64,000 nucleotides of DNA, taken from NCBI GenBank assembly GCA_028753945.1, contig JAPNXP010000003.1, positions 4,836,001 to 4,900,000 of the forward strand, read 5' to 3'. Below, piece by piece: positions 3,701-58,399 of the stretch. Position numbers and translations under genes: made by a program. Numbering within the stretch: the stretch's first letter is position 1; every line of letters begins with the position of its first letter. The notes under the pieces are model-generated. The model searched no databases and was not told where the DNA came from. It worked only from the letters and a program-made list of their open reading frames with translations. The DNA is from Hexactinellida sp. DTS-2022. Its lineage: Eukaryota > Porifera > Hexactinellida.

Positions 3701-6700
3701 TGTATTACGATTTACGAATTATGAATTATCAAAATCAAAGTGCATCCTCAACTGACTTATAAATCCATAAAACCTTCCAAAATTCAAATCAATTATAGCA
3801 AAGTTGTATAATAGTAAAATACGTTACTTCCCCTTCTACGTAGTTTAAAGTATAACTGAAATAATAAGCTATTTAGAAGGTGAAATATATATTGCATTGA
3901 CGGGTAAAAGATTATAAAATGTTAGCTTTCACAATATGTAAACTGATCATAGGGTGTCGGAAATGGGCCGCCCGTCCTGAAGGCTCCGGGTCGGCCCAAT
4001 CGATTTCGGGGCCGCTACATTCACCGGGCAGCCGGGTGGGTCCGACGCCTATGAAACTGATTATTGAACATTAGAACTGTGCCGACAACTACGTATTGGG
4101 CTAGTATTGAAATAACTGCCTTGGATTTTTAATATTATCCACACAAATAAATACTATTTGATAGATCTTATATCTAAGAACATATTGTTTGTAAATTGTA
4201 ATATATGTGAGTCTATGTGACGCAGAATTTTATCCAGGAGCGCGCCATACGCCTAGAGGCGTATAAATTGTGATTCGTTTGCGTTTAGGAGCGGGAAAAC
4301 TGCCGAAAGTCCCCATATAGTAATACAAAAAACTAACCTTTTAGGCATACAAAATTAATACTCTAGTGACCTTAGGACAGTTAGGAGTGTTCAATTCTAC
4401 TCCTATATAATACCCTGATGTGACGCCATTTAACGTATAATACGTGAAGTTACTTCATATATATTATAAATGTTAATTACGTAAAATCGATCCGGGGCCT
4501 TGGGTATCAGTCTTCAACAAATTAAAAATGAATAATTTAAGCTGATTTTAGGGAATATAATCTGTTGGCATTCTGTTAGAATTAGCGTCTGAGTTAAAAT
4601 GGAATAGCCATTAGGACATCTGGTAGAAAGTAGAAATATTTAATGTAAGCATCCAGTTATTGAGTGGTAATATATACTACGTAGAAATTATCAAAATAGC
4701 TATATCGTGGGGTATTCAAATAATGTTATTCTACAAAGTAGTAATACGATAACATAATAAATATGATTTCATATTTGAATGCAATACAATTTGTAGTGAC
4801 GGCATGATATTAAAATTTTAAATATTGTTACACAAACACAATATAGTATATGACTGTATACCCCCCCAAACATATATAATATGTAAGGTTAGGTTTTACA
4901 TAAAACATATAATTATAAATATAAATAAACGAATAAGAATGAAATCTATTATAATAACAAGAAATGGCAACAAGCTTAGAAAGTTGTTTCAGGAAACTTA
5001 GGGATTCTGAGGCAAGCGTAATGTCCCTAGCAGCTAAGATAGGCGACTGGAGCACCGTATATGAGATACTGGGAAAGAGACCAGAATTAGTTAACTTCAT
5101 CCCAGAATATCGCCCTTGGGCCATACTGCATCACGCGAGTCATAGTGGAAATGAAAAGGCCATAATACAAATCCTATCTATTCCAGAATGCGATCCTAAT
5201 CTAATGAGCAGAGACAGACTCAGAGCAAACGAACTGACAGACAATCCTCGTTTGAAGGAAATAATCGAAGCAGCTCAGGCTGGCCGCCCAGTACAAACGC
5301 CAACTCAGAATTACATCGTAATAAAGGAGAGCTTTGAGGAACTCAAACAAGCTGACGCTGTTAATATAAACCAAATGAGCACAGCCTTAGAGAATGGCGA
5401 CATTGTCGAAGTGGCTAAGATAATTGACACCAACCAGCATCTGGTCAATGTAGTCCCTCCCGAACTAGGCTTAGGGCCTCTCCATCAAGCAGCGATAATG
5501 GGAGACGTGGACATAGTCAACAAGCTGCTCTACTACCCGGCTTCTAATCCGGATATCAAAACTACAGCCGCACAGTTTAACATCCATGGTCCAGGGAAAA
5601 CTGCAGAGGAACTCACGACTAGTCAACAAGTCAAAGAAGCGATAAGTTGCAAGAAACAACAACTAACACAGGAGTATTACGCCTGCCCCACTTACGTAGA
5701 CATAACAGACAGTAACCACATACTAATGGACTATGCATCCCATACGATAGAAGCACACAAGGGCTTGTTATGCTCTGATAGGTTTGATTCAGAGAATTTC
5801 AATGTTTTCCCTAAAATGGTCGAAGATGTGTTCCTCTACACGCACTACAGTTCCAAATGGGAACAAGCACGGGAAATAACCTGCAGAGATCTAAATGGCT
5901 TTGATAATATATTAGCGAAACAGATAATGGAACAGAGGTCTAGAGATGCCTTCTATATCAAATTAATAGAAGTGTACACCAGCGAGAAAATAAGGTTATA
6001 CACGAATTTGAACAGTGAACTGAGAAATCAAGCAATTAAAATGTACAAGTCAACTCGATTTAGTTCATACACAACGATCGTCAACGCAATTCTATTTGTT
6101 TGGGATCAGTTAGAGTCCTATTATGACGTCACCTATAGAGGAATGAACCTTAATGAAAAGGAATTAGACGATTACTCGGTTGGTACTGAATTCGCTTGGC
6201 TTAACTTCGTGTCAAGCAGTAGTGAAAGAAAAGTAGCACAGCGATTTGGAAAGAATAAGGACAAGTTCAAAAGTCTGTTTATATTCGATAACAAAAGGCA
6301 GTGCAAATGGTCTCCCAAATCAATTGAAAAGATATCCAACCACGAAAGGGAGAAGGAATACCTGTACCCGTGTGGAGCTCAGTTCAGGGTAACTAAAGTT
6401 GAAACCATGGGTGAATTCAGACACATCCACCTCGAATTAATCTGTGTTGTAGACCCCACGCCTCTCAGGTCTCTCTTTGACGAAACTGTAGCGAGAACTG
6501 AAAAGAACATTGAAACTATAAAAGAGGAAAGTAAACAGTTCGAAAAGGATTTGAGTCAACTAAAATATATTGTAGAAACAGCGAAAGATAATCAAATCGA
6601 GATGTACAATAACGATAATTATGAAGTGCACAAGGATGAAGAAAAAACAGAAAAGGTAACACTCCCCAAAGGTGTTTTCATCTACTCATGCATTTGGTGT

Positions 6701-9700
6701 AAAACGGTGTGTCACGACCCTTGTAGCCAGGAATGTGGGGATATCTGTCGAGTCGCAATCTCAGATGATCAGTGTACAGTTTGTTCGGCAAAATGTCCAT
6801 GGTCATTACATAGAAAATATCCTTTCCGTACAAAACTAGTTACGAAGAGAAAAACAAAGATTAACGAGAATATGAAAAGGAGATACGTGTCTGCGGAAAC
6901 TGAATACGTGGAATCAAAGGTTAGTATAGAGAACCTATCCTATACCATCGAGGATACTATGGCAAGCATGAATAGCAAATTGGGAGAAATAAAGGAGAGT
7001 ATCTCAGTTCTGGAGTTTATGTTAACAGCTGATGATAATAATGGGAATAATTCGTTAATTATTCCAGAAAGGTTTGAAGAGAAAAAACGAAAAGTAGAAC
7101 AGTTAAAGGATCAACTACCTAAAGTTAGTAAATCAGTCAAGATCGGTGAAAATTGTCTCTCCAAAGCTAAGGGTCTTGCTAAATTGAATGGGCTTCTTTA
7201 ATTAATTTGTGAATAATCGATGTGGGTATCTATTATTATTGTTTGTTTAGCTTGTTGTACATATATGTATTACAATACTAAATTGCAAGAATAAGTGTAT
7301 TGGGTTATTATTGTCCGTGATATTAAAACTCGTATAATAAGTACGTAGTAGTATTTCCTAACTAAAAGTGCATTTTTCCTAATTTCCATATTAACAAATA
7401 CCGTATTGCTTCGAATAAGCGCCCAGTCGCTTATTGTTTTTGCCAAAGTTACCAAAATCAATGTAATTACACTCAACTAATCAATTAAAGTAATACAATG
7501 ACTCATTGTAGTAGTAACAAATTGGTTGGTTAACCAACCGAAATCGTAGGAAACTATCGAGGTAGGTTAGCCAAATAACGGATTTGGCCAACTGGTAGAC
7601 AAATTAATCAAATGTAAAGAAGTTGAATCTATTAATGAACAATGGTTTTAAATTAAATTAGTTTGGACTGAATCAAAGCAATTTCGTACCAATTAGTAAC
7701 TAAATATTGTTCATACATTCAACACAGATGTAGATAAAATAACTACTCTTCATGTTTAAGTCATTTATAATAATACAAAATATCTCTTAAGAGTAAGGGC
7801 TGATTACCAACCCTGCACATAAGTATTTTGGGAATATAGTATATGAGTTTATGTTAATAATATTCTCAATACTAATTACTAGGTGATTTTATGTAGCTCT
7901 CCCCAGTGTAATTATTTTGTCTCACAAGGACGAAAGAAATTTGTCCATAATTATAGAATAATAAAAATTATTATTTTCGTAATCTCTTCGCAGTGTAGTC
8001 CATTTATGCAATAAACCATTTAGAGTAGACATTTATCTTGTAGACAATCTTTAATCATTAATTATGCAATATTATTCAGAACTTCATAAATAAAATCATG
8101 CACTTAAGATAAAAGCGAATCTATTCAATTAATTAATAATTAACTCTTAGCTAAACAAATATATTACGTTTTTGTAGTTAAATTAAATCTAGGAAGAGAC
8201 ATTTGCACTCAGTTAATATTTGTTGTTGAGAAGTCAAATACTCAAGAAAAGTTAGTCTAGTAATTTATAACAAATTCTAAAATTACATTGCAGATCTGCA
8301 TTTTAAAAACTCATCGTCTCAAAGTATGGATCCGTTACATGTTTTGGAGCAAAGGAAATGCTTAGGAACCTGGCACTGTAGTCATTTTAAATATTTATTT
8401 TATTGGTTTATCCACATAAATTATCAAGTAGGTATTAAATTAAAGAATTTACAAAATCAAGTGCTAACCTTACAATATTATAAAATATTACGTGGCAGTA
8501 GAGATATGATATGAATTGAAATTTCCAACTCGAATTAGCTGATAAGTCAATAATAATTAAATGAATTGAAAAGGCGATCAAATTAGTATAAATACCATTA
8601 AAATCTTCTTAAAAGACAAACAAACAAAACATGGCATCAAGTTCAGAACAAGATAAAGGTGTTAGCCAACTTCAAGGCAAAGAAGAGACTATCATACCAA
8701 TATCATTGCAAACAAAAGACTGGGCTACGATATTCGAGGTACTATTCAAGCGACCAGAGTTGGTTAACTGTATTCCAAGGGAAGCCATACCCAAGTTAGA
8801 GGACTACGCAAATAAAAATAGAGATGAAGTAGTTATCCGGAAAATGCTTGCGATTCTAGGATGCAATCGAAATCAGGAGAATAAAGTTGGAGAAAGCCCA
8901 ATCGGATTAGTAGAGGATCCCAAATCAAATAGTACCGAATTTCCCTCAAAAGATGTCCCAAGTCCAATAAAAGCAGAAACGGAAATAAACCTTGAGCAAC
9001 CAGAAGTAACAAACAAATCTCTTGTTAATGCAGATACCAGCAATGAGGATGAACAAACTAAAAACAAAGTTAGCGAACTTCCATCAAAAGATATCCCAAG
9101 TCCAATAAAAGCAGAAACGGAAATAAATCTTGAGCAAACAGAAGTGACAAACGAATCCCTTGTTAATGCAGATACCAGCAATGAGGATGAACAAACTAAA
9201 AACAAAGCTACTGAACTTCCCTCAAAGGATATCCCAAGTCCAATGAAAGCAGAAACGGAAATAAACCTTGAGCAACCAGAAGTAACAAACAAATCTCTTG
9301 TTAATGCAGATACCAGCAATGAGGATGAACAAACTAAAAACAAAGCTAGCGAACTTCCCTCAAAAGATATCCCAAGTCCAATAAAAGCAGAAACGGAAAT
9401 AAACCTTGAGCAACCAGAAGTAACAAACAAATCTCTTGTTAATGCAGATACCAGCAATGAGGATGAACAAACTAAAAACAAAGCTACCGAACTTCCCTCA
9501 AAGGATATCCCAAGTCCAATAAAACCAGAAGAGGGTACTCCTGCCAACGATTCACTTCCTGGTGATAAAGATAACGAAACAAATGATGACACTATTTCAA
9601 AGGATAACGATTACAAAGCTTTATTAAAGACTTATGAAGAACTTCGGGAAGCTGATTCCCTCAGAATAGATCAGATAAGCGATGCCTTAGAGAATGGGGA

Positions 9701-12700
9701 TATGCAAAAAGTAGTTAGCATAATCGACAACAACCAGCATCTGGTCAATGTAGTGCCTGCTAAAATAGGGATCGGTCCTCTCCATAAAGCAGCAATGATG
9801 GGTGACGTAGATCTTGTCAACAAACTGCTCTACTACCCGGCTTCCAATCCTGATATTGAGACTACAGCTTCCGAGAAAAACAAGCATGGTCCCGGAAAGA
9901 CAGCAGAACAATTGACAAGAGACGAAGGGGTGATTGAATCTATCTCTCAGAAAAAACGAAAGTTATCACAAGTATATTACGATTGTCCTACTTTCGTACA
10001 GATGAGTGATAGTAACACGATACTCATGAATTATACAGCCATTCCATTAGACGCGTATAAGGGCCTGATATCTTCTGAATTGTTTGCTTCTAGTAAATTC
10101 GAAGTCTTCACAAAAATGGTAGAAGACGTATTCCTATACACAAATCTAACAATAAAGTGGGAAAATGCGAAGGAGATAACATGCAGAGAACTAACTCGCT
10201 TTGATCATCCACTAGCGGAGACAGTGAAGAAATTTGACACAAAAGAAGCATTCTACAAAGGTATAATACGGATATATACCAGTGGTAGTAAAGCAATTTA
10301 TGGTGAATTGAACACGGAAATGAGAAATCAAACTGAAAATAATTCCATGATACGTACAAGATTCTGCAAATTCCGTTCATATGCAGCGATCATCAATGCA
10401 ATATTATTCGTTTGGGAAGAGCTTCAAACCTATACAGGAGATACCTATAGAGGAATGAATATTTCTGAAAAGATCCAGAAAGAGTACACAGTAGGAACTG
10501 AATTCGCTTGGCTTACCTTTATTTCAAGTAGCAGTGACAAGAAAGTAGCGAAGCGATTCGGACAGAAAAAGGTGGAACAGGAAAGTAAAGATAAAGCGGA
10601 AAATAAAGATAAAGCGGAAAATAAAAATAAAGCTGAAAATGAAAACAAAGAGGAAACGAGCAAATGTCTGTTCATATTTAATAACAAGACACAGTGCAAA
10701 TGGTCTCCTAAATCGATTGAAAGCATTTCAAAAATCAAAGAGGAGAAAGAATATCTCTATCCATCTGGAGCACAATTCAGGGTGACAAAGGTAGATGAAG
10801 CAGATGGCTTCAAACAAATACACCTCACATTGATAAATCCCATTGACACGTCAGCTCCTAGAAATCTGTTCGAAGAAGCTCAAATGCGATCCGAACAGGG
10901 CATGAAAAATATTAACAAGGAATTAAGTCAATTCAAAAAAGATTTGAGTGAACTTAGAGATTTAACAAAGAATATAAACGGTGAAAATAACAAAAAATAC
11001 GCAACAGACACAGAAGAAGAAATCAAAGCTATGGTAGAAAAGCTCAAAAGTAAAATTGGAGACGGCTCAAATATGAATACCTTACTGGATGAAATAACAG
11101 AGAATATCGGTATAATGGAATATGGGTTAACAGATGTAAAGTCTACTTTTAGGAGAATGAAACAAATGATCTTCCAAGATAATATGAAACAAAAGCAACA
11201 AACAACAAGAAGGCTAAGAGGGGAATTAATGGAGATAACGGGATCCCTAAATACAGTTGAGAGCAGTTTTAAGGAAACTATAGCATTGATACCAGGAGAA
11301 CAGTGATTGCAACTTAATGTCTAAGTTAATACTAACAATATTCTCAGAAATTGATTCGTTTACCCTTCCAGTGTAATCATTAAATGTGTTATTGATATAG
11401 GCCTGATTCTTCTGTTCATAATGTGTGCTAGATATGATTTAAAAACAAAAATTAATGAGTCTAATTTTTTGTATACAGTAGAACCTGCCTAATCGGACAC
11501 CGTTGGGATAGGGAAAAATGTCGGTTCTGCTCAAGGACTTATCCAGGACGCGAGACGATCCTTTTGGAGCATGATTTTTGGAAAATTTAGAATCCTCTCC
11601 TATACCGTAACATTAATTTGTGATTTAGGCGTATGAAAATTGAATCAGACCAGGAGCCTATTTACAAATGGTTGTATCATACACTGGTTCTGCTGAATTC
11701 CGGGTGATAGAGGCTCGAATTATGCAGGTAGTCCTGCATCAATTATAATGTTTTATGTTAATCGAGTATAAATAATTATTAACTAATCAAAAGGTAACCT
11801 CAAATATAATATACGTATATTGGTCGTGGGTAAGTATGGCGATTATGTTAACTTCAGTGCACTCCCAGTTTCATAGGAATATATTACGTACATTACTATA
11901 TTAGTCAACAATTTAAGGTGACAAGAGTTGAAAAACAAGGGGAAACATCTACCTCAAGTAAATAAAAACTATCGACCCTTCAAGCCCAATAAACTTTTTG
12001 ATGAAATGTAGAGAACTTAATATAGCATTTAAGCTAAAACGAGAAACGAACTACATTCAACGCAGTACGAGTGATAGGGACGAGAAGAACAAGGGGCACT
12101 AGAAAGAATTAAAAATATGGATTCATTATTGGAGGAAATAAATGAAAATATCCTAATACTGGAATCTGAGTTAGCAACTGAAAAAACCTTAAAGTTTACG
12201 GGAAAATTAAGCAATTTATTTTTAAAGAAAAAGTAGAAAATAAGCAACAAATAATAAATCGATTAAGAAGGAAAAGGATGGTATTAGTGAGATAGTAGTG
12301 AAAGCTAGAACTTCTTCAAAGGTCTTCAAAAAAATAAATAATTTTTTGTAGTACAGTGGATGCCGGTTATAAGCACATCGTTGGGAACTGCACTTAATGT
12401 GCCTATAACCGACATGTTCTTATAACCGACATGTTCTTATAACCGACATAAATTATGCAGGGTATATGGCAACCGTTTCCCAACATAGTGTGCTTATGTA
12501 TATCCGATATGTTCTTATAACCGGTGTGCTTATATCTGACATCTACTGTACAGTAAACATTGGATTTAACGATACTCGTTTGGGCAGGCTAAAAGGTCAC
12601 TAAATCCGATAGCTCAAAAAGCTTCAAATACTACTACGGACCTCTATGCAAAAAAGTTTTAAAAAAAGTAAAAAGTAAAAAAAGCCAAAATATGTATTTT

Positions 12701-15700
12701 AAAAAAGTATTTAAAAAAAGTCTTTATTAGCGATTTTTCGCTAAAGCCGATGTCGTTAAATCCTGTATAATATGTTTCGTTTGTGATAATTATGCTCTCA
12801 TTTGCATTAGTTGATAGGTTCAACACTTTGTACATTCATAACTGTTGTATCATTTTGTATAGGATTACTTTCTGAGGTATACTGTAATTAGAATATATAG
12901 TAGAACTTCGTTAGTAGGAACACCAGGGGACCGTCAAAATGCATTCGCCTTATCCGGAACTCGTATTAATGAATATCATTGGTATTGAAAAAGCTTTGAA
13001 GGGGACTGAAATAGTGTTCGTATTAATCGGAATTTCGTATTATCCGTGTTCTTACTAAAGAGGTTATACTGTGTGTGCTTCTGTCATAATAAAAAGTTAT
13101 AATTCAGTCTCATTTATATTTACACATAAAGAGATAGGAAAAGAACTCTCGATGAACAATCTTTTAGTAATACTATTTAAATTAGTATATTTATTTGAAC
13201 AAGACACTGTGTTGTTAGTTATTCTACTTAATAATTGCAGTACTCTGTTAGATCAATACACCAATTCAGAAATACAAATCCCTTGTAACTCTGAGATGAA
13301 CTAGTACTACTGTATATTAGCAACTTTCTAAGGAAATACGGAAATACGATTTAAATTATTGAATTCTTATCAAATTTAAAATATTAATGCCATTTCAACT
13401 ACTACTGGAATACAAATACGTACTAACAAGATATTCCCGTAACAGTCAACATCTTACGTTGTATAATTCTAATTTTCACTAATTTTCATAATTACTTATT
13501 GTTTTCAATTATAAATACAGTGGTGTTCACGTAATAGCATGTCGCATTTTGCACCAAATTTCCTTGCTAATAGAGGACAACAATATTATTAAATGCTCGC
13601 TTGGGGACTAAAAATAACTTGCTAGTAAAGCAAATATTACTGCTATTAGGCGAACATAACTGTATACATATTGAGAATTGGTCGAAATAAATTTGAATCC
13701 ATAATAAGTTAATAACGGAGTACACCAAATATTCACTTTTCACTGAACTTATAAATGTAAATGTAAATTTTATATCTACTCAACGTGTTCTAAAAGATAG
13801 ATTGTAAGAAGAAAAAACTTCCAGAGAAATTTGTCCAATATTATATCTGCAAATTGTGGGTAAAAAGCAGACTTGTCTGTACACAATACTAACTCTTTAA
13901 TTATAAGGATGAAAAGAAACATAATTTGCACTTTCAATAGATTTGCTGAAGTTCTTATCAACTACTACATAAATTAATTTTTGCGTAATTCTCATATGGA
14001 ATAGCAGATTTTCTATTCACTAAATTATAGATGCAAATAGATATCAGACCACAACACAGCCAGTAACATAAGTAATATACCACTGAAAATAGAAGGCACA
14101 TGCTAAGTATAAATATATATTAAATTCAGTAAACATTGTTTAGTTGTGGAGAAATAATAAAGTATCTAAAATGGCAACTGATTTAGAAAGAAAGTTTAGT
14201 AGACTAAGGGACCCAAAACAAAGCGTCCTATTTCTAGCAGCTAAAATAGGCGATTGGAGTACAATATATGAGGTACTGGACAATAGGCCAGATCTGGTTA
14301 ACTTTATCCCAGACAATCAGACATATGGATTATTGCATCACGCGACTATAAGTGAGAACGAAATAGCTATCATCAAGATTCTCTCAATTCAAGGATGCGA
14401 TCCCAACCTGATGGACAGAGATGGAATGAAAGCGAACGAATTAACAGACAATGAACATTTACAGGAAATTATTGAGGCAGCACAAGGAGGTGGTACAGTA
14501 GAAAGTTCGAATCAAAACAACCTAGAATGCAATGATAATTTTGAGGAGCCATTAGAGGGAATTGAAGGGCAGTGCTTAGCTAAAACTACAGCCGAGCTTC
14601 AACCGAAGGAAACTCTCGAGGCAACTGAAACAAACTATCAAACAGAAGAACTAATTCCAAATTACGAAACAGTAGGAAACCTTGCGGAAGAACTGGATGC
14701 GGACATTAACATTAATGATAGTTACGAACATAGTGCAAACGATTTAACAGATAAATTACATTCAAAGGAAGTAATCGAGTCACCGAAGGAAACTCGTCTA
14801 TTTGAAGATCCAAATCAGGACGACCAGATTATCATGGACAGTGCAGAGGAAGCCCAGGATTCCAACGCAAATAGAATCAATATTAGTTCAACTATTAGAG
14901 ACGAACTGAGTGAAAAACAGTTGACAGAGGAAATTCATACGAAGGGAAATACCGAGACAAACGAAGTAACTCGCTTTATGGAAACTCCAGAAGAAGGGTC
15001 TCCATTAGATAGAGCAAGTTTACAAGAACTACAGGAAACTACTACACATGAAACAGATCTCAGTCCGATCGGTGCACAAGAACTGAGTGCAAACAAATTA
15101 ACAGATGAACTACATGCGAGAGACAGCATTGAGTCATCAGATGAAGTTCGTCCAAAGAAAGTTCAAGACCAAAGTTACCAAAAGATAACAATTACATTTG
15201 AAGAGCTGCAGAACCGTGACGCAATAAAAATAAATGAAATGAGTCTAGCCTTAGAGAATGGCGACATTGTCGAAGTGGCTAAGATAATTGACACCAACCA
15301 GCATCTGGTCAATGTAGTCCCTCCTGAACTAGGCTTAGGGCCTCTCCATCAAGCAGCGATAATGGGAGACGTGGACATAGTCAACAAGCTGCTCTACTAC
15401 CCGGCTTCTAATCCGGATATCCAAACTACAGCCGCACAGTTTAACATCCATGGTCCAGGGAAAACTGCAGAGGAACTCGCGACTAGTCAACAAGTCAAAG
15501 AAGCGATAAGTTGCAAGAAACAACAACTAACACAGGAGTATTACGCCTGCCCCACTTACGTAGACATAACAGACAGTAACCACATACTAATGGACTATGC
15601 ATCCCATACGATAGAAGCACACAAGGGCTTGTTATGCTCTGATAGGTTTGATTCAGAGAATTTCAATGTTTTCCCTAAAATGGTCGAAGATGTGTTCCTC

Positions 15701-18700
15701 TACACGCACTACAGTTCCAAATGGGAACAAGCACGGGAAATAACTTGCAGAGATCTAAATGGCTTTGATAATATATTAGCGAAACAGATAATGGACAAGG
15801 AGAATAAGTCCCGAGATACTTTCTATCAAAAATTAATAACCATCTACACCAGCAAGGCAGTCATTAATTGGAATCTGAACAGGGAACTGAAAAAACAATC
15901 CGTGAGAGACAACGAACAATTATTCAAGTTCTCTTCATATACCGTGATACTCAACGGGATTCTATTTGTTTGGGATCAGTTAGAGTCCTATACTAAGGTC
16001 ACCTATAGAGGAATGAACCTTAATGAAAAGGAATTAATTGATTACTCAGTTGGTACTGAATTCGCTTGGCTTAACTTCGTATTAAGCAGTAGTGAAAGAA
16101 AAGTAGCACAGCGATTTGGAAAGAATAAGGACAAGTTCAAAAGTCTGTTTATATTCGATAACAAAAGACAGTGCAAATGGTCTCCCAAATCAATTGAAAA
16201 GATATCCAACCACGAAAGGGAGAAGGAATACCTGTACCCGTGTGGAGCTCAGTTCAGGGTAACTAAAGTTGAAACCATGGGTGAATTCAGACACATCCAC
16301 CTCGAATTAATCTGTGTTGTAGACCCCACGCCTCTCAGGTCTCTCTTTGACGAAACTGTTGCGAGAACTGAAAAGAACATCGAAACTATAAAAGAGGAAA
16401 GTAAACAGTTCGAAAAGGATTTGAATCAACTAAAAGATTTCATCGAAATTGCAAAAGGAAAAGATGTTCAGATGAAAACTAACGAAAATACTGAATCAAA
16501 CAAAGCTCAGATCGAAAAACTTAAGAAAACTATGGAAAATGGAAAGTCAAGCCTTAATTGCTTATTGGACGAGTTAAATGATAACATCTCAATAATGGAG
16601 AATGGATTAACAACAGAACTTCCTCCCAGTAGTCCGATTCCGCGAAAAGTGAGTAGAATATTCTTCCAAGACAAACCAAAGGATAAACAGCGACAATTTC
16701 AACAGTTGAGAGCTCAGGTCACAGAGATCAATAAGTCAGTTAGCAATGCTGTTGTTTCTTTCTCGGAGGTTTCGGATTATGCTAAACAAAATGGGCTTGT
16801 CTGAAAATATCCAAGGTATATCGTTATGTAAATGAGTAACTAGTAGGTTGTCAATAATAATGTGTTAATAATTGCTATCCCCTCATACTCTCTTGTATGT
16901 ATACTGATTGTGTTTCTAATGTTGTATATAATAGTTGATAAAATATTTCGTTAGAAATTAATGAGCTGGATGTATTAAAAAATAAAATGATTTGAAATCG
17001 CTCAGTTAATAACTATTATTGTAAATATAAAGACTCAAGTCTAAATTAAAGAATATTTGTTAATATTTTATAACTTCATCAGTTTTTTTAAAGATTTTTG
17101 TTTCACCCTTCTGCCAAAATTAGACCAGCGAATCCAAAATTATAACGTGAGTCATTATCCAATGTATACCTTGTCAATATTTGCATCTCTTAGTTATTGA
17201 AAATATTTATTAGTTACAAGTTTATAATTTATATTACTGAATTACAAAAGTAATCTACTGTATTTGAATTAAACTTGATGTTTGTTTGTATTTGTTTGTC
17301 CGAATTGTATCATAGTTATAGGGTAAATATATTTGTAATAATAGGAAGTGGCGGAATTACCATAGAGCTGGTAAGGTTAAAGCCCAGGCCAACTTCACTA
17401 TCAGGTCCAGTTTAGGTAAACTGACCTGGAAATGGGATTGATTTGGGAATAGAAACTAGTTTCATCTTATTTAAACAGAAATTTTAAGCACACTTGACTG
17501 TTTATTGAAAAAATCGTTGGAGGATTTTTGTAAAGAATTTATTCACTGTTCTGTATGGGAATAGTTCGTCTGATGCTGAAACAATTTTTAGAATACAATA
17601 TTTTTTCAAGGATATAAAAATAGGCCCAAATAACGACTTAGCATTAGGCCCACGACGCTCTAAATCCGGCACTGATAATAAGTAAACAAGTAATCTAATT
17701 ACGAATTTTCTTTTGTCAATAATTTGCTGTTATATTTGTGCAACTACATCATTTCCGAAATAATTGAATAATATGCCAATTGGGTATGTTGGTAAATAGA
17801 TCGCACCAAGTTAAGTTCTCGTATTGTATAAAGTTCAAGATTATATGGCGAGCTGTCCGCAATAATATTGATAAATCAGGCGCTAGGATTGTTGGCGATA
17901 TAGCTTTATTATGAACAATCAATTTATAAGAATAGCAGACTTATCGGATCTGTAAATCGGTAGAGCCAAGCGGGCTCATTCACTAGATCCGATTTGACAA
18001 AAAGTATTATTCGTAATATGTCCCAGACTTTCAGTCGAAGCTACGTAATTCGAGGTTTACCAAAGACTATTTATCAATGCTATATCTTCACAACCCAAAA
18101 ACGACATTGTAATTGGTATTGTAAACACAGTGTAGGGTAGGGGTTACATAATTGCAATCTTGCTAATAGGTAAAGTTGAAATGAGAGGAACTTAATTAAA
18201 CATATTAAATGTGATAATTAATATATAATGTAATACACCAAGATAAAATATTAAAGTCAGGTTCTTTTATTATGAACATTCAAGGGACCAAAAATTGTGT
18301 TCACATTAGAGACTTCATAAAAAGCGAAACTTAACACAAACCCTATGTAAGTTGTTAACTTGGGACCATATAGCTAATTCATAAATAAAAGATCTTCATA
18401 ATAAGCAGACGAAAAGTGTTCACAAATAAGCAGGCCTGACTAGAAGATTAGCCTTTAAATCAATCATAAAAAGTTATTTGTATTATTGATTACTATGAGA
18501 GTTCTAACTACTTTTTGTTATTTACATCATTCATTAGTCACAGTAGTACACAAAAATATAAAATAATAAACTATTACACATTAAATTAAACTCCTCACAT
18601 AATAACAGTTGTAAATATGTATGTACAATTAAAAAGAATGCTTTTGTAATGAGACAAGAAAGCTTACCTTTCAAAAAACTTTGGAACACAGTTTCTAGGA

Positions 18701-43649: not shown

Positions 43650-46600
43650 CTTCAATCAATTCTGTACATACAAAAAAAAAACAAAATTGCAGCCTGTGCC
43701 GACGCATGTTCCTTTGGTGCCACTATATTTTGTTGGTTGTTTATTTATAGTGCCTCCAAAAGAACATTCTGTCGGCGCAGGCTGCAATTTTGGATTTTTT
43801 TTTCGCCATGTCATCATCACTATGAAGGTGTTAAATTATTTCAAAAAGGTGTTACAGAAGGCATCGACCCTTAGAGTGGTGGAAGTTTCCATTTAGTTCA
43901 TATAATTTTAGAGATATTCAAGTTTGAGTAGAATATAATAGCTGATGACTCAGCATTTTTTATGTGTGTGTTGGGTCATCACCCAACATCAACTAACCCA
44001 TTTTTAATATCGAATTAACAAAATTGTAAAAATACATTTTTTTGACGATGTCATAATCACCTCAAGGTGTCAAGACCCACTTGTATAGGTGGTACCTGGC
44101 ATAAGGACCAATTGATAAATTGAAAGTTTGTTTCTATCTTGTATCATCTCTGAGATTAATGAAATTTATCTAATTAGTATAAATATTTAATTTATTTATT
44201 TATTATTTAACACCATTATTATATACAGCAAAATAAATTAAGTTCAATTATTTGCAATTATTATTAATTTAAATTGAATTTCACTATAATATTTGAATTC
44301 CACGCACTCGATAACCCCAATAATCTATTTGGAACCATCTCTATACGGTAAACACAGAGCGAATTAATTAGAATTAAATATGTCAGTACATTAATTGTGC
44401 AAAAAGAATATTCTCGCCGAAATAAATATAATCACTTAATCTGTCGTTGTTGTGGAATGTAAAATCTTAACGGTTCTATCATAAACCATCTTTAGTTTAA
44501 TGCCATTCATTCATTACTTATTGATAAAAAATTAAATTATTAGTTATTTATTTTAGCAATGTTATCCACGGTGAGTTGAGTAAAGTCAACAAATTCCTTA
44601 TATAAATTAATTTAATTTAATCCATTGTATAGTAATGCACAATTAAATAGAAGCCAGCTGGAATTTATAAGTTGAATCAATATAATTATCGCAAGTTGAA
44701 TCACTAGAGTAGGATTTAACAAGTTAAATCAATATAATTATTACAAGTTGAAACAATGGAATTAGATTTAACACTTTTACTGAAATTGAAGTGTGAGTAA
44801 ACAAAGAAATTTCAACCCCCATTTATGGCAGAAATTATACCATTTATTGAAAATTTTCTTCACCCATCAAACGCAGAATTTTATGGTGAATCCAAATATG
44901 AAATAAAATTTGCGGGTTTAGTAAAACAATTTTTGAGTTATGGACCAGACAAAATTTGAAAGGTGTTAAAGATGTGTCAAAAATTTCTTAATCAAAAATC
45001 GTTACCCCAGGTGCAAATTAGACGGTCCCATCGCACCTACATGCAAAGTTTAAGCCCATCAACTATAAAGCTCTGGCCAGGGCACCGTCTACGGAGAAAA
45101 AAAAAATCCAAAATTGCAGCTGTGCCGACGCATGTTCCTTTGGTGGCACTATATTTTGGTGGTTGTTTATTTATAGTGCCTCCAAAAGAACATGCTGTCG
45201 GCGCAGGCTGCAATTTTGGATTTTTTTTTCGCCATGTCATCATCACTATGAAGGTGTTAAATGATTTCAAAAAGGTGTTACTGAAGGCATCGACCCTTAG
45301 AGTGGTGGAAGTTTCCATTTAGTTCATATAATTTTAGAGATATTCAAGTTTGAGTAGAATATAATAGCTGATGACTCAGCATTTTTTATGTGTGTGTTGG
45401 GTCATCACCCAACATCAACTAACCCATTTTAAATATCGAATTAACAAAATTGTAAAAATAAATTTTTTGACGATGTCATAATCACCTCAAGGTGTCAAGA
45501 CCCACTTGTATAGGTGGTACCTGGCATAAGGACCAATTGATAAATTGAAAGTTTGTTTCTATCTTGTATCATCTCTGAGATTAATGAAATTTATCTAATT
45601 AGTATAAATATTTTATTTATTTATTTATCATTTAACACCATTATTATATACAGCAAAATAAATTAAGTTCAATTATTTGCAATTATTATCAATTTAAATT
45701 GAATTTCACTATAATATTTGAATTCCACGCACTCGATAACCCCAATAATCTATTTGGAACCATCTCTATACGGTAAACACAGAGCGAATTAATTAGAATT
45801 AAATATGTCAGTACATTAATTGTGCCAAGAATATTCTCGCTGAAATAAATATAATCACTTAATCTGTCGTTGTTGTGGAATGTAAAATCTTAACGGTTCT
45901 ATCATAAACCATCTTTAGTTTAATGCCATTCATTCATTATGTATTGATAATAAATTATATTATTAGTAATTTATTTTAGCAATGTTATCCATGGTTGGTT
46001 GAGTTGGTCAACAAATTCCTTATATTAAATTATTTTATTTAATCCATTGTATAGTAAGACTAGAATTAAATAGAAGCCAGCTGCAATTTATAAGTTAAAT
46101 CAATTTAATTATCGCAAGTTGAATCAATAGAGTAAGATTTAACAAGTTAAATCAATATAATTATTACAAGTTGAAACAATGGAATTAGATTTAACAGTTA
46201 TACTGAAACTGAAGTGTGAGTAAACAAAGAAATTTCAACCCCCATTTATGGCAGAAATAAAACTCTTTATTGAAAGTTTTCTTCTCCCATCAGACGCAGA
46301 ATTTTATGGTGAATCCAAATGTGAAATAAAATTTGGGGGTTTAGTAAAACATATTTTGTGTTATGGACCAGACAAATTTTGAAAGGTGTTAAAGATGTGT
46401 CAAAAATTTGTTAATAAAAAATCGTAACCCCAGGTGCAAATTAGACGGTCCCATCGCACCTACATGCCAAGTTTCAGCCCATCAACTATAAAGCTCAGGC
46501 CAGGGCACCGTCTACGGAGAAAAAAAAAAAAAAAAAAAAATCCAAAATTGCACCCTGTGCCGACGCATGTTCCTTTGGTGGCACTATATTTTGTTGGTTG

Positions 46601-48250
46601 TTTATTGATAGTGCCTCCAAAGGAACATGCTGTCGGCGCAGGCTGCAATTTTGGATTTTTTTTCGCCAAGTCATCAACGCCCAAGGTGTGAAGAAGCATT
46701 TGTTAATTGGTCCGAGTCACAAGGAACGGTAGATAAATTTGAAGTTTGTTTCTATCTTAAACCATCTTGAGTTTGATGACATTCATTCATTATGTATTGA
46801 TAATAAATTATATTATTAGTTATTTATCTTAGCATTGTTTTCCACGGTTGAGTTGAATTAAGTCAACAAATTCCTTATATTATATTATTTTATTTAATCC
46901 ATTGTATGGTAAATTAAATAGAAGCCAGCTGCAATTTATAAGTTAAATCAATTTAATTATCGCAAGTTGAATCAATAGAGTAAGATTTAACAAGTTAAAT
47001 CAATATAATTATTACAAGTTGAAACAATGGAATTAGATTTAACAGTTATACTGAAACTGAAGTGTGAGTAAACAAAGAAATTTCAACCCCCATTTATGGC
47101 AGAAATAAAACTCTTTATTGAAAGTTTTCTTCTCCCATCAGACGCGGAATTTTATGGTGAATCCAAATGTGAAATAAAATTTGGGGGTTTAGTAAAACAT
47201 ATTTTGTGTTATGGACCAGACAAATTTTGAAAGGTGTTAAAGATGTGTCAAAAATTTCTTAATCAAAAATCGTTACCCCAGGTGCAAATTAGACGGTCCC
47301 ATCGCACCTACATGCAAAGTTTAAGCCCATCAACTATAAAGCTCTGGCCAGGGCACCGTCTACGGAGAAAAAATAATAAAAAAAAATCCAAAATTGCAGC
47401 CTGTGCCGACGCATGTTCCTTTGGTAGCACTATATTTTGTTGGTTGTTTATTGATAGTGCCTCCAAAGGAACATGCTGTCGGCCAGGCTGCAATTTTGGA
47501 TTTTTTTTTCGCCAAGTCATCAACGCCCAAGGTGTGAAGAACCATTTGTTATTTGGTCGGAGTCACAAGGAACAATTGTTGAATTTGAAGTTTGTTTCTA
47601 TCATAAACCATCTAGAGTTTAATGCCATTCATTCATTATGTATTGATAATAAATTATATTATTAGTTATATATTTTAGCAATGTTATCCACGCTTGAGTT
47701 GAATTAAGTCAACAAATTCCTTATTTAATTTAATTTGTTTTAATTCATTAAATAGTAATACTAGAATAAAATAGAAGCCAGCTGCAATTTATAAGTTAAA
47801 TTAATATAATTATAGCAAGTTGAATCAATAGAGTAAGATTTAACAAGTTAAATCAATTTAATTATTACAAGTTGAAACAATGGAATTAGATTCAATATAA
47901 TTATTACAAGTTGAAACAATGGAAATTGATTTAACAGTTTTACTGAATCTGAAGTGATGGGGAAATACAGGAGATTGGCACCCCAATTATGGCACAAACC
48001 TAGGCTAAGTTGAACATTTGTGAATTGCCAAAAGGTGTAGAATTTAATTCTCTATCCGTACATGTAAATTTTATCAAGCTCAATATTAATTATTTCATGT
48101 TATGAGCCATAATTAGTTTAAATAGGTGTTAAAATTATTTGATCAAAAATCGTAACCCCAGGTGCAAATTAGACGGTCACTCCGCAACTACATGCCAAGT
48201 TTCAGCCCTCAATGTATCAAGGTGTGGTCAGGGCACCGTCTACGGAGAAA
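43650..48250. repeat. Tandem array of four hairpin-bearing units
   Basis: Units start at about 43670, 45100, 46520 and 47375 (spacing about 1.43, 1.43 and 0.85 kb), with a last partial unit to 48250. Each has the lead GGTGCAAATTAGACGGTC...GGGCACCGTCTACGGAG (visible in full from unit 2 on), a poly-A run, and a hairpin. Units 1 and 2 share about 900 bp downstream; units 3 and 4 share a shorter, different version (CGCCAAGTCATCAACGCCC). No credible protein frame; the short frames listed by any ORF caller recur because the units repeat. Confidence 0.85.
43670..43803. repeat. Long hairpin of array unit 1
   Basis: Left arm AATTGCAGCCTGTGCCGACG through TGGTGCCACTATA pairs with TATAGTGCCTCCAAAAGAAC through GGCGCAGGCTGCAATTTTGG. 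Arms are about 55 bp around a loop of about 25 bp. Equivalent hairpins stand at about 45098-45228, 46517-46662 and 47370-47508. Confidence 0.85.
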
Positions 48251-48256
48251 AAATAT

Positions 48257-48522
48257 AAATAAAGGCAGTAAGATTAGAACTGGGCCACTATACTATAGTA
48301 TAGTCGGCACAGTAATAATAATAATAATAATAAAGGCAGTGATTCCAATACTGGGCCACTATACTATAGTATAGTCGGCACAGTAAAAAAAAAAATAAAG
48401 GCAGTGAGATTAGAACTGGGCCACTATACTATAGTATAGTCGGCACAGTAAAAAAAATAATAATAATAAAGGCAGTGATTCCAATACTGGGCCACTATAC
48501 TATAGTATAGTCGGCACAGTAA
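48257..48522. repeat. Four-copy palindrome array just upstream of the AIG1-Hint gene
   Basis: Each unit of 65-71 bp holds the perfect 18-bp palindrome ACTATACTATAGTATAGT (48287, 48358, 48423, 48494) inside CTGGGCC...CGGCACAG, which extends the pairing imperfectly. Units alternate between AAGATTAGAAC/GAGATTAGAAC and GATTCCAATAC types, so a two-unit block was itself duplicated. The last copy ends 66 bp before the ATG at 48589. Confidence 0.9.
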
Positions 48523-48588: not shown

Positions 48589-51240
48589 ATGGCAGACAAA
48601 TTTCCTCAAAGGGATCCGAAAGCGACAAAATTAAGCGAAAATGAAGCGAAATTCTATGACAACTTTCAAGAATACACAGGCTACAATAGATCGATATTCA
48701 TGATTGGAATCACTGGAGCAGGGAAAAGTACTTTCTGTAACTTCTTAGCAAATGCTAATGTGTTCGATGAAGGCTGTGGCTTTATTTCAAAAACTAAGGT
48801 AACAGGTGCTTGCAAGTTCAATTTCAATTCAGAAGATGTGCTCATCATAGATTGTCCTGGATTTTGTGATTCTAAGCGCCCTGCAGAGGATATTCAAGAT
48901 GAAATTTGCAAAGTAGGAGTGATGGCAAAAGATGGAACTGATGCCGTAGCAATTGTGGTTAATTCATTGGAAAGATTTAGTGACAATCATCGGAGCGTAT
49001 TAAATCAACTTGAGTTCTTAGGCGGGTCATTGTGGGAACATGCATTCCTTGTATTCACAAGAGAATCCAAGGTCATTAAGGAATTCACAGTGAAATCAGG
49101 TGAAAAGTATATCGAAATGATAAGTGCTAGCAGTGAATGTCCACCTGTACTAACAGAATGGTTAAAGAAGACACAAGGAAGATTCATTTGTGTTGAGAGT
49201 AAAAAGAAGTTTCAAAATGAACTCTATAGAAATGAAAAATGTACGAAAATATTTCAATTTATTGATGAAATTCGTGAAAAAACAAATAATGTAAGATACA
49301 ATAACTCATTGATGAAACAAGGCGCAAAGTTCTTCCGGGAAGTTGCAAAAGCAAGAAAAGCAGAAGAGGGCATGCAAAGGTTAGCTGCTCAAATGGAACA
49401 ACAGCGACAAGAGGATAGAAAGAAGCTAGAAGAGGCACAAATAAAACTTGAAGAAGCACAAAAAGCGGCCATTCAGAAAAATGAAGAGGATAGGAAAAGG
49501 TATGAAGAGGTACAGAGAAATTTTGAAGAAGCAAAAAAAACAGCTGATCTTAAAAATGAACAGGATAGAAAAAGGTATGAGCAAGCACAAAGAGAATTTG
49601 AAACAGCACAAATAGCTGCTGATAAAAAAAATGAAGAAGATAGGCAAAGGTATCAAGTAGCACAGGAAGAAATTAGAGAAATGGAAAGAAAACATGGAGA
49701 AGAAAGGAGACGAAATGAAGCAGAAAGAGAAAAATTACGTGACGAGATGAGATATTCTGACAAACAAAAGGATCTGGAAATTCAAAAGTTGAAAAATCAA
49801 TCAAAGGAATTTGTATCAGAATCTTCCAGTAGTAGTTGTTTCTCTAGGAAAACAAAGATATTGCTATCGTCAGGAGGATTAACGAACATCAGTAACATTA
49901 ATAATGATCACATGGTAGCGACACCCAACGGGCCAAGAAAGGTTGCTCTCCTCTCAAAAATCAAAAGATATCAAGATACCCTCTACAGCATCAATAGCCT
50001 GGATTTCAAATTCAACAGGTACCATCCATTTGTGGTTTGGAACGGGATTAACATGGAGAGAACGTCATTTGCAGTAATTGACGTCAATGAGTTCATAAAT
50101 TTCATGCCTACAATGGCTGCAAGAAATGTGAAGAGCTTGTATGACAAAAACACTAAACTAACTGGGTACTCAAATGAGGGACTGACTCCAATGTCAATTC
50201 ACTCTATTTCCAAAAGTTGTGAAGAGTTATCACCTGATTACGACATACTTTATGACGTCATTTTAGAACCAAACGGGACAGGAATCAATGAATACTATGC
50301 AGGGAATGGTAATGAGATGTTTCTCGTGTCGTCTGAAATTTCAACATATACTCTCGAAGCAGAAAAACAGTACATACCAGCATACATTGCAATTCTCTCA
50401 GTAATCAACATAACATCACAACAACAAGAGGCCATATATACCCATAGCTCGCTCAACACTGAAAATGACGTCATCAATTTCTTTGAAAATGAAATTGTTC
50501 AGAATGGAATCGGTTTGCTTGCGAATGCATTGGTGAGAATGTCACACTTTAAATCACTCAAACTGACAAAAGCATCGAAGAGTATCCACGAAATGGAAAA
50601 ACGATTCAAACAAACTCTAAGCTTCTTTTCGGGACCAAAGCCCATAGCAGTCACTACCCTATCTCTGATATATGAATATCTGCAGACACTTATCTGTCCA
50701 CTTCACATTATGATCAAGCTGGGGTGGAGAACATATGTGGTGCCCGAGGAGAGAGACATGCTGGCAATAGGCATTTCTGATGTCTCGTTTATTAGTGAGG
50801 AATGCTTCGCTAATCCAATTGAAGTACTTTTGATGATCAACACAGAACAAGAACCATACAAAATGGGAGAAAATGGAATAATTGGAAACCCTCGAATGAG
50901 ACAAATATGCGAATCAATCTATATTCCGTTCAATGGAATTCAAGATGACAAACTATATTTGATTGTGCAAGAGAAGAATACATCTAAAGTTATCGCTAGA
51001 AAGTGCATCAAACTCGAATCAGATTTTGTGCATGATTACAGATTGTTGAGATTATTCCCATACAATAGTGTTAATATCTCAGAAGTGAGAGTTAACATAG
51101 ACCTTAGGATTGTATCAAGTGGACAAATGAAACAGGAGATTGAAGCAAAACAAGATTGGAGTGAGGAATTCGAAATCCATTTTGCAGAAATATTTGCTTC
51201 AAAGATTGTTGACAGTTTGGTGGAAAAGGTGAAATCTTAG
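48589..51240 (+). CDS. AIG1/GIMAP-type GTPase fused to coiled coil and Hint-like domain
   Basis: 883 residues, intronless. I start at the ATG at 48589 (MADKFPQRDPK); 13 extra upstream codons depend on a TTG. The GTPase has the P-loop GITGAGKST (40-48), a G3-like DCPGF (88-92) and an FTRES stretch near the G4 position, as in AIG1/GIMAP proteins. These bind GTP, act at membranes and are linked to defence in plants and animals. Residues about 255-410 are a charged coiled coil with repeated EEDRKRYEEAQ phrases. At Cys417 a Hint-like region begins: CFSRKTKILLSSGG, then DHMVATPNG, the RYHPFVV block (His479), and a closing strand near YYAGNGNEMFLVSS (about 585). Hint domains in inteins and hedgehog proteins cut or rearrange the peptide bond before that Cys. 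The final 290 residues are unassigned. The Hint call is by motif and order only. Confidence 0.8.
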   Translation: MADKFPQRDPKATKLSENEAKFYDNFQEYTGYNRSIFMIGITGAGKSTFCNFLANANVFDEGCGFISKTKVTGACKFNFNSEDVLIIDCPGFCDSKRPAEDIQDEICKVGVMAKDGTDAVAIVVNSLERFSDNHRSVLNQLEFLGGSLWEHAFLVFTRESKVIKEFTVKSGEKYIEMISASSECPPVLTEWLKKTQGRFICVESKKKFQNELYRNEKCTKIFQFIDEIREKTNNVRYNNSLMKQGAKFFREVAKARKAEEGMQRLAAQMEQQRQEDRKKLEEAQIKLEEAQKAAIQKNEEDRKRYEEVQRNFEEAKKTADLKNEQDRKRYEQAQREFETAQIAADKKNEEDRQRYQVAQEEIREMERKHGEERRRNEAEREKLRDEMRYSDKQKDLEIQKLKNQSKEFVSESSSSSCFSRKTKILLSSGGLTNISNINNDHMVATPNGPRKVALLSKIKRYQDTLYSINSLDFKFNRYHPFVVWNGINMERTSFAVIDVNEFINFMPTMAARNVKSLYDKNTKLTGYSNEGLTPMSIHSISKSCEELSPDYDILYDVILEPNGTGINEYYAGNGNEMFLVSSEISTYTLEAEKQYIPAYIAILSVINITSQQQEAIYTHSSLNTENDVINFFENEIVQNGIGLLANALVRMSHFKSLKLTKASKSIHEMEKRFKQTLSFFSGPKPIAVTTLSLIYEYLQTLICPLHIMIKLGWRTYVVPEERDMLAIGISDVSFISEECFANPIEVLLMINTEQEPYKMGENGIIGNPRMRQICESIYIPFNGIQDDKLYLIVQEKNTSKVIARKCIKLESDFVHDYRLLRLFPYNSVNISEVRVNIDLRIVSSGQMKQEIEAKQDWSEEFEIHFAEIFASKIVDSLVEKVKS

Positions 51241-56512: not shown

Positions 56513-58399
56513 ATGGCCAGTGCAACAGCATTTGATAGTCTAGCGTTCGTTGCTGCTGCCCTTAGCGCTCTAACAGAAAAACATATCGTCACTAAAATAG
56601 AATACGACCGTATTAGCATTGAAGTAAAGAGTGGGGGAAATAAAGTGTACGTTTGTGCTGGCGAACTAAACGTGGTGGAAGAAATAAAGCAAACTTACGC
56701 GAAAACAGCTCAGTTAGTAGCACAGAGGCATAACCCAATTATTGCACGCAACACAATAGCATTAGCTGCTGGGGCAAGTGAGTGCAAAAACCCTGAAATT
56801 AAAAAATATCCAACTACAAATACAAAAGCAAACAAAGTACCAAGTGAAATAAAGAAGTCAGGAAAGAACAAAGACAAATTTAAGGGCAAACCAACCAAAG
56901 TTCCATCCGTGAAAACAAGCAAATGGTATAGTAGGCTAAATTTCAGGGGTCATTTTTCGCTATTTCCAAAAAGAAGAAATAAGAAAGAACCATACAAAAA
57001 GCCTAACTCTCGTCCAAATTGCCGCGATTATGAAAGAATGAAACAAAATTTTGAAATATCTGATGAAGATGTACCTCAGAAAAATGAGCCCCGAAAGAGA
57101 AGGCTTTATAGGAAAAAATTTAGTCCAACAGATGAATACCAAAGAATGAATGCCAATTCTTCTGATGAGGAGAGTATGTTTGTTGATAAGTCAACCATCG
57201 CAAGAAAGAGAAGAACCAACACAGCTTCACCAGAAGAGAACCAGGTTTATTCAGATGTAGAGACTAGAGTTAAATTAAGTAGTGTTAGTTGGAAAAACAT
57301 ACAACTACAGGGGAACAACGAGAAGAATAAATCATGCCAATACATTCATCAGATGTATCCAGATTTCGAAAAGGATACTAAACGGCAGACTGCGTTGTTC
57401 GGAGATATAGAAACTGATGAGAACCTCAACGATCCGGTGTTTCAAGCTACCTTTGACAAAGAACCTCTTCTAACAGAGAAACCAATTGGCAGAGCACGTC
57501 GTGTATCGAAGAAAAAAGAAAAAATTAACGATACATCTTCCAGCGAGGAAGACACTATTGGTGACACTTATAACATCCATCATTCCGATACAGAGGTAAT
57601 GGTAACAGACAAGTTACACTCATTATCCATTGCATCACGCAGAGTACAAATAACTGCAAAAACAATAGATTTGTTTGTGGTACTACCATTAGGCGGGACT
57701 TTAACAGTAGAAATGGAATCGACACACAGTCTAGTGACCAACATAAAGCACAAGATTAAGGAGAGGGTAGGGATAGCAGTGACGGAACAAGTGCTGCATT
57801 TCGGGGGTCATCTGTTGGAAGACGGAAAGTCGCTCAATGAATACAACATAAAAGCTAACTCCACAATCCACTTGAGCGTCAAAGGAAGAGGAGGAGCCAA
57901 AAAGCGATTGTTTTATATCGATTCTAAATACCTGGATCCTCGCTGGAATTATGACTTCACTAAGATATCAGATGGTAATACCCAATTCAAGAGGGGAGGG
58001 TATCCCTACTATCGACCTTGTGGGTGGAGAAGAATAGCTATTAAAGTGCTAGGGAAGTATCAGAATGATATTTGGTTGGGACAGACTGGTGACGGATCAA
58101 AGGGAGAGTGGGCAGTGACCTATCATGGAACTAATTCTAATGCTTTCAACAATATTTCTAATGAGGGTTATATTGTAGGTCCAAGGGCAGGATATGGTCC
58201 TGGAGTCTACTCATCTCCGAAAATTAAAATAGCAACTAGTTATGCATCTCGCTTTACCTACGAGGGAATGAACTACATTGCTGTGTTCCAGAACCGTGTC
58301 AATCCCAGAGGTGTGAATATTAAGAACAACGGAGATTACTGGCTTTGTCCAAATAAGAATGACATTAGGCCTTATGGTTTGTGTGTAAAAAAAGTATAA
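56513..58399 (+). CDS. Ubiquitin-like domain fused to a PARP-like ADP-ribosyltransferase domain
   Basis: 628 residues, intronless. The first 90 residues form a small Ala-rich folded region. Residues about 100-375 are highly basic and acidic in turn ([32 protein letters not shown]) and look disordered, with possible nuclear signals. About 384-459 is a ubiquitin-like fold: DLFVVLPLGGTLTVEM, KHKIKERVGIAVTEQVLHFGG, LNEYNIKANSTIHL, closing in KGRGG, which resembles the ubiquitin RLRGG tail but runs on. The C-terminal part has GEWAVTYHGT (His at about 537) and GYGPGVYSSP (Tyr at about 566), the H and Y of the H-Y-x PARP/ART fold, then NRVNPRGV and a closing NDIRPYGLCV. It may transfer ADP-ribose; whether mono or poly, and to what, is not visible. 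The third catalytic position is uncertain. Confidence 0.8.
   Translation: MASATAFDSLAFVAAALSALTEKHIVTKIEYDRISIEVKSGGNKVYVCAGELNVVEEIKQTYAKTAQLVAQRHNPIIARNTIALAAGASECKNPEIKKYPTTNTKANKVPSEIKKSGKNKDKFKGKPTKVPSVKTSKWYSRLNFRGHFSLFPKRRNKKEPYKKPNSRPNCRDYERMKQNFEISDEDVPQKNEPRKRRLYRKKFSPTDEYQRMNANSSDEESMFVDKSTIARKRRTNTASPEENQVYSDVETRVKLSSVSWKNIQLQGNNEKNKSCQYIHQMYPDFEKDTKRQTALFGDIETDENLNDPVFQATFDKEPLLTEKPIGRARRVSKKKEKINDTSSSEEDTIGDTYNIHHSDTEVMVTDKLHSLSIASRRVQITAKTIDLFVVLPLGGTLTVEMESTHSLVTNIKHKIKERVGIAVTEQVLHFGGHLLEDGKSLNEYNIKANSTIHLSVKGRGGAKKRLFYIDSKYLDPRWNYDFTKISDGNTQFKRGGYPYYRPCGWRRIAIKVLGKYQNDIWLGQTGDGSKGEWAVTYHGTNSNAFNNISNEGYIVGPRAGYGPGVYSSPKIKIATSYASRFTYEGMNYIAVFQNRVNPRGVNIKNNGDYWLCPNKNDIRPYGLCVKKV

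Follow-up and report, generated by a model that had tools for sequence, protein, structure and literature searches.

A glass-sponge AIG1 GTPase joined to an internal Vint-like Hint domain and a C2 fold, a variant of the reported AIG1-Hint fusions that may cleave itself

Proteins in which an AIG1 GTPase precedes a Hint-type self-processing domain are already in print. According to the passages that describe them, the coral Acropora millepora has an AIG1 domain with a C-terminal Hint domain (pfam01079) in four transcripts, for which splicing was inferred (PMC3723955), the snail Biomphalaria glabrata likewise has AIG1 with a C-terminal Hint (PMC7053062), lancelets and a few fungi have the order CARD-AIG1-HINT (PMC12373286), and GmGIN1 of Glomus mosseae joins an AIG1-like GTPase to a bona fide Hog domain that has the J and K motifs (PMC2362128). 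Those passages describe no test of processing, so a processing result for any one member would inform the coral, snail, lancelet and fungal pairs. Here we analyse a related gene of the glass sponge Hexactinellida sp. DTS-2022 (GCA_028753945.1), located in a stretch of 64,000 nucleotides (contig JAPNXP010000003.1, positions 4,836,001 to 4,900,000, or C12:4836001-4900000 in our numbering; hereafter, the window). An earlier note on this DNA had seen in the fusion a possible new way to switch a GIMAP-like protein; the publications above show that the fusion itself is not new. The gene is a variant of the reported fusion, in which the Hint domain is Vint-like and internal, with a helical region and then a C2 domain on its C-terminal side. 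We consider it an even chance that the Hint domain cleaves the precursor at Cys417, releasing the GTPase and coil from the C2-tethered half.

Like the published pairs, the window protein has a Hint domain behind its AIG1 GTPase. The coral Hint, as far as the passage goes, is of the Hog type and C-terminal, whereas that of the window is Vint-like and internal, with the helical region and C2 behind it; the two are set apart by description only. GmGIN1, in the part of the paper that treats it, resembles the window protein in having an AIG1-like GTPase upstream of an autoprocessing-type domain and no signal peptide, but differs in that its domain is of the Hog type, J and K motifs included, and no C2 is mentioned there (PMC2362128). 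By profile, the closest Hint type is that of the VWA-Vint proteins (PF14623; Tetrahymena Vint structure 8r2c), which the same passage regards as processed inside the cell (PMC2362128). These carry VWA and Vwaint domains upstream, whereas a Pfam search of the window protein gave no match to either. The hedgehog Hog domain shares with it the Cys-type Hint start, the block-B His and an Asp at about the D46 position (Asp463 in the window protein); it differs in that the window protein has no match to PF01079, has not kept the block-B Thr and has a different region behind the Hint. Among glass sponges, Aphrocallistes vastus has a cluster or expansion of AIG1 genes, many of them single-exon, and the section on AIG1 mentions neither Hint nor C2 (PMC10282587). 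In the open-licence PMC literature we found no report of a glass-sponge AIG1-Hint-C2 variant; papers treating AIG1 and Vint together came down to one from 2008 on Hint domains, the sole one linking AIG1 to hexactinellids was that on the A. vastus genome, and none since 2018 covered the Vint domain with Tetrahymena or the HINT fold. A word search of the main text of the Oopsacas minuta genome paper found no mention of AIG1, hedgehog or MACPF. The 2008 paper, in the part concerned, describes Vint genes as seemingly lacking in Metazoa. Two VWA-Vwaint-Vint proteins are encoded in the genome of this sponge (L014:1486-3378, minus strand, and L015:118-2007, plus strand); when a VWA-Vint protein was compared with contigs of prokaryote genomes, 24 stretches matched a pattern and none was confirmed.

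The features of the gene are as follows.

48589..51240, + strand: complete gene in the order AIG1 GTPase - coil - Hint - helical - C2-like; a single uninterrupted frame of 883 residues with its stop
48691..49320, + strand: AIG1 GTPase domain, residues 35-244, with P-loop GITGAGKS at 40-47 and DCPG at 88-91 (PF04548, GIMAP structures)
49339..49821, + strand: charged stretch resembling a coiled coil, residues 251-411 (judged from the sequence and the alignment)
49834..49839, + strand: proposed cleavage junction Ser416/Cys417 (Ser and Cys in 11 of 11 sequences)
49837..50343, + strand: Vint-like Hint domain, residues 417-585, the C-terminal boundary being approximate (PF14623, hhalign, fold searches)
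50014..50034, + strand: block B, NRYHPFV, residues 476-482, His479 kept, Asn476 instead of Thr (alignments)
50248..50304, + strand: block-F-like stretch LYDVILEPNGTGINEYYAG, residues 554-572, without His-Asn behind it (alignment)
50344..50742, + strand: mostly helical region, residues 586-718, role unassigned (structure model)
50746..51135, + strand: C2-fold domain, residues about 720-849 (structure model, fold searches)

PF04548 (AIG1) matches residues 35-244 (E 2.4e-23; 83 bits, cut-off 27), and this GTPase part also matches by sequence the solved structures of GIMAP4, 7, 2, 5 and 1 (e.g., 3lxx, 3zjc and 2xtp). The start of the gene is consistent with aligned homologs beginning MADK, MASK or MAEK. 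Residues 251-411 look like a coiled coil beside the AIG1 domain; its length differs between homologs, and residues 251-392 weakly match SH3BP5 chains (E 0.005). As the earlier note had proposed, GTPase and coil end where a Hint-type start begins, at Cys417 (TGT, 49837-49839), and the motifs CFSRKTKI, DHMVA and RYHPF, the last including His479, follow in that order within the frame. Ten proteins match residues 412-883 at 61-82% identity, two of which are the hypothetical proteins LOD99_12366 and LOD99_15641 of the hexactinellid O. minuta; the records of P0003, P0005 and P0009 lack the beginning of the GTPase. The expected conservation of Cys417 and His479 was borne out without a loss, as C417, K459, D463, N476 and H479 are identical in all 11 sequences (window plus ten homologs). 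The joining of GTPase and coil to a Hint-type domain is supported, and it is conserved in glass-sponge proteins.

The profile check that the note had called for supported a Hint assignment of the Vint type, the window protein itself staying below the cut-off and Hog finding no support. Vint (PF14623) matches residues 416-481 of the window protein from profile position 1, at 22.3 bits against a cut-off of 27, and at 25.3 bits, still short of it, when a 204-residue piece is searched alone. All ten homologs have an AIG1 domain and a Vint match at the Hint start (E 0.1 or better), and four of them (P0001, P0004, P0005 and P0007) pass the cut-off, the top score being 35.3 bits, though three of the four are near-copies of each other in the Hint part. 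Hog (PF01079) gave no match at E 1 for the whole protein or at E 10 for its pieces, a PDB sequence search with the Hint profile gave none either, and NCBIfam matches lay below cut-off. In hhalign, the 11 Hint segments aligned with the two Vint domains of the genome at a score of 37.9 over 70 ungapped columns, pairing Cys with Cys and His with His, against at most 24.5 in 100 column shuffles and 27.7 for the genome's Hog domains (ten rows, L030_3241 left out). The lists of the first fold search were filled by C2 matches, and the Hint fold was assessed with a Hint-only model; the first 29 Foldseek matches of this model, whose confidence is low, are all Hint-family structures. In 35 of 47 Hint rows the structure alignment opens with Phe418, residue 9 of the model, on the second residue of the chain, which places Cys417 in register with intein residue 1.

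Block B of the Hint domain reads NxxH, with Asn476 in 11 of 11 sequences; the TxxH form, which is the block-B motif of inteins and hedgehog, is present in the two Vint proteins of the same genome, L014 and L015. Intein-type splicing, which the earlier note had considered as a response to a trigger, and C-terminal cleavage are not expected, because none of the 11 rows has His-Asn after LYDVILEPNGTGINEYYAG (the window reads NEMFLVSSEIS), and the terminal Asn, usually His-Asn, followed by Cys, Ser or Thr is missing; N-terminal cleavage would still be possible as far as the sequence goes. The invariant Asp463 is residue 47 counting from the Cys and adjoins residue 46 of hedgehog, an Asp that activates the sterol, so a possible general base is present. 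The hedgehog residue is numbered after a PDB entry entitled 'Hedgehog autoprocessing mutant D46H', and the Asp463 column aligns with a His of this genome's own Hog domains. A replacement of hedgehog's catalytic Asp by Lys459 was considered and dropped, since the alignment column falls on Asp463. The last ~290 residues, which had been said to match nothing, include a domain (residues ~720-849) that is modelled as the eight-stranded sandwich of a C2 fold; between it and the Hint, the helical region is modelled with block values of the predicted local distance difference test (pLDDT) mostly of 28-40.

We propose that an intracellular GTPase of the GIMAP/AIG1 type would be made as a precursor with a C-terminal half for processing and tethering. 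The Hint domain would attack its own backbone at Ser416-Cys417 by an N-S acyl shift, and the resulting bond would then yield to water, a thiol or another small nucleophile, which would free the GTPase-coil part (expected 48.6 kDa) from the Hint-helical-C2 half (expected 53.3 kDa). The C2 part would tether the precursor to a membrane or ligand and might set the moment of cleavage, for which some trigger would presumably act, and a role in immunity is conceivable. Self-cleavage is favoured because the four residues C417, H479, K459 and D463 are invariant, because Vint is above cut-off in several homologs and the hhalign score is above all shuffles, because Hint structures lead the Foldseek matches, and because a C2 fold lies behind the Hint. 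It is also favoured because GTPase-coil relatives without a Hint exist (L002 in the same genome, P0012 and P0013), and because P0011, recorded as an AIG1-coil protein of 416 residues, stops exactly before the Cys and so equals the predicted product; its end could reflect either a stop codon or a break in the annotation. P0011 is the nearest protein to the window over GTPase and coil (79.1% over 416 residues; next P0002, 75.3%). If the Hint cuts, a GIMAP-type GTPase would be switched by irreversible self-cleavage from its C2 tether, and we know of no GIMAP under such control.

The same observations can be read in other ways. The Hint may be a retired enzyme that does not cleave and is kept between coil and C2 for its structure or for binding, which we regard as rather unlikely but to be taken seriously: the block-B Thr is replaced in every sequence, and retired-looking copies seem to be present in the same genome, where a second Hint-like stretch upstream of the Hog domain of long ORFs (open reading frames; L030-L033, L039) has GFP or GYP for CFP in nine of ten ORFs, the search pattern having admitted Cys or Gly. 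However, those copies have lost the Cys, whereas Cys417 and His479 are kept throughout the family. A less probable reading is hedgehog-like ligation, in which a sterol, lipid or other nucleophile would resolve the thioester and stay on Ser416, leaving a membrane-anchored GTPase, and the helical-C2 part would take the role of sterol recognition. The additional conserved region behind the Hint would suit this, its C2 fold being a common lipid binder, as would the place of Asp463 next to hedgehog residue 46 and the frequent membrane association of GIMAPs, which are often membrane-bound. Against ligation stand the lack of a PF01079 match, an hhalign score nearer to Vint than to Hog, the loss of the block-B Thr, and the fact that no known sterol-recognition region is seen.

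Two further readings are very improbable. Protein splicing of the intein type would join the GTPase-coil to the C2 half, in keeping with conserved regions on both sides of the Hint, but the His-Asn followed by Cys, Ser or Thr is missing from where block G is expected. That the Hint match arose by chance, with residues 417-585 forming an unrelated domain, might be argued from the sub-threshold Pfam match of the window protein, the low model confidence and the lack of a PDB sequence match; we find it hardly credible, given four homologs above the Vint cut-off, an hhalign score that exceeds all of 100 shuffles and fold searches whose top matches are all Hint proteins, aligned with Cys417 in register.

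Within the genome of this sponge (112 Mb, 18 contigs), the whole protein finds at least 11 matches, 10 of which, besides itself, cover the GTPase or GTPase-coil parts only, and the AIG1 profile finds 17, 16 above cut-off. No second copy of either C-terminal part was found there: residues 412-591 find themselves and one chance-level match (E 1.23), and residues 592-883 find themselves and two (E 0.158 and 1.36). The protein searches returned only the AIG1-Hint-C2 family and three Hint-less GTPases; they need shared five-residue words and have a length limit, and absence in other organisms is not implied. Just beyond the window end lie AIG1-like fragments with stops (C12:4901377-4901551) and a 637-residue AIG1/septin-like ORF (C12:4902852-4904765).

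Three homologs, P0004, P0005 and P0007, which are probably on one contig of 258,219 bases, differ in their heads far more than behind them: they are 93.7-98.9% identical in the Hint and 97.6-99.3% in the helical-C2 part, against 65.1-88.4% in the GTPase and 33.8-71.4% in the coil. When they are aligned without gaps from the Cys, the ten residues that precede it agree at 2-3 positions and the ten that start with it at 8-10. This suggests, tentatively, that in glass sponges self-cutting Hint and Hog domains may be cassettes that are exchanged among diverging GTPase heads of a defence type, with the cleavage Cys as the border, a possibility that we consider doubtful. It may be seen at the protein level in these three and at the DNA level in a different family, the GTPase-MACPF-Hog cluster of the same genome, which supports it. 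The other pairs lack the contrast between head and cassette; for example, every homolog's GTPase except that of P0005 is about as alike to the window as its Hint or more so. Plain homogenisation of similar sequences, extending as far as the similarity does, would leave the same picture as the cluster shows. If the cassette reading is true, a single shared mechanism could serve to release or modify any new head, and the pattern of variable heads on a constant cassette offers a testable idea on how defence-type proteins diversified in early animals.

In that cluster, many of the 18 Hog (PF01079) matches of the genome lie at C11:14.69-14.77 Mb, and long ORFs with P-loop GTPase, MACPF and Hog domains are found at C11:14738241-14772675 (L030-L033) and in L035, L036, L038 and L039. 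A scan of 17 of the 27 listed ORFs at E 0.01 found MACPF plus Hog in 9, 5 of which also have the P-loop GTPase, some ORFs being partial and some GTPase or MACPF matches being under the Pfam cut-off. Among seven cluster ORFs (21 pairs), the Hog domains share 95.0-98.3% identity and the heads 25.4-43.7%, apart from one pair at 75.5%; the Hog of the cluster copy L030_3241 is less similar (76-82%), and L035 and L039, outside the cluster, differ more. In ungapped DNA of eight Hog copies of L030-L033 (28 pairs), mean agreement is 0.41 in the 15 bases before the Cys codon and 0.98 in the first 15 from it on. Across the first 285 bases of the Hog the means of the 15-base bins run from 0.95 to 1.00, and in the 150 bases upstream from 0.27 to 0.41, so that the likeness starts at the Hog's Cys codon. 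The Gly-bearing stretch upstream is perhaps a retired Hint directly before an intact-looking Hog; among the upstream segments Pfam finds Hint in five of eight at E 1, one above cut-off, and nothing in L035 and L039. No paper on MACPF, hedgehog and a Hint domain together was found in the open-licence PMC literature.

Elsewhere in the window, four copies of a unit with tgggccactatactatagtatagtcggcacagta lie immediately upstream of the gene (48284-48522), and three short ORFs at 44963-47665 have SHRTYMxSxSPSTIKLxPGHRLRRK in common, probably an interspersed repeat. An ORF at 56513-58399 has a ubiquitin domain (residues 394-457) and an unassigned C-terminal part. Finally, three adjacent, similar ORFs at 4964-7201, 8631-11306 and 14144-16804 match ADP-ribosyltransferase (ART), and two of them contain ankyrin repeats.
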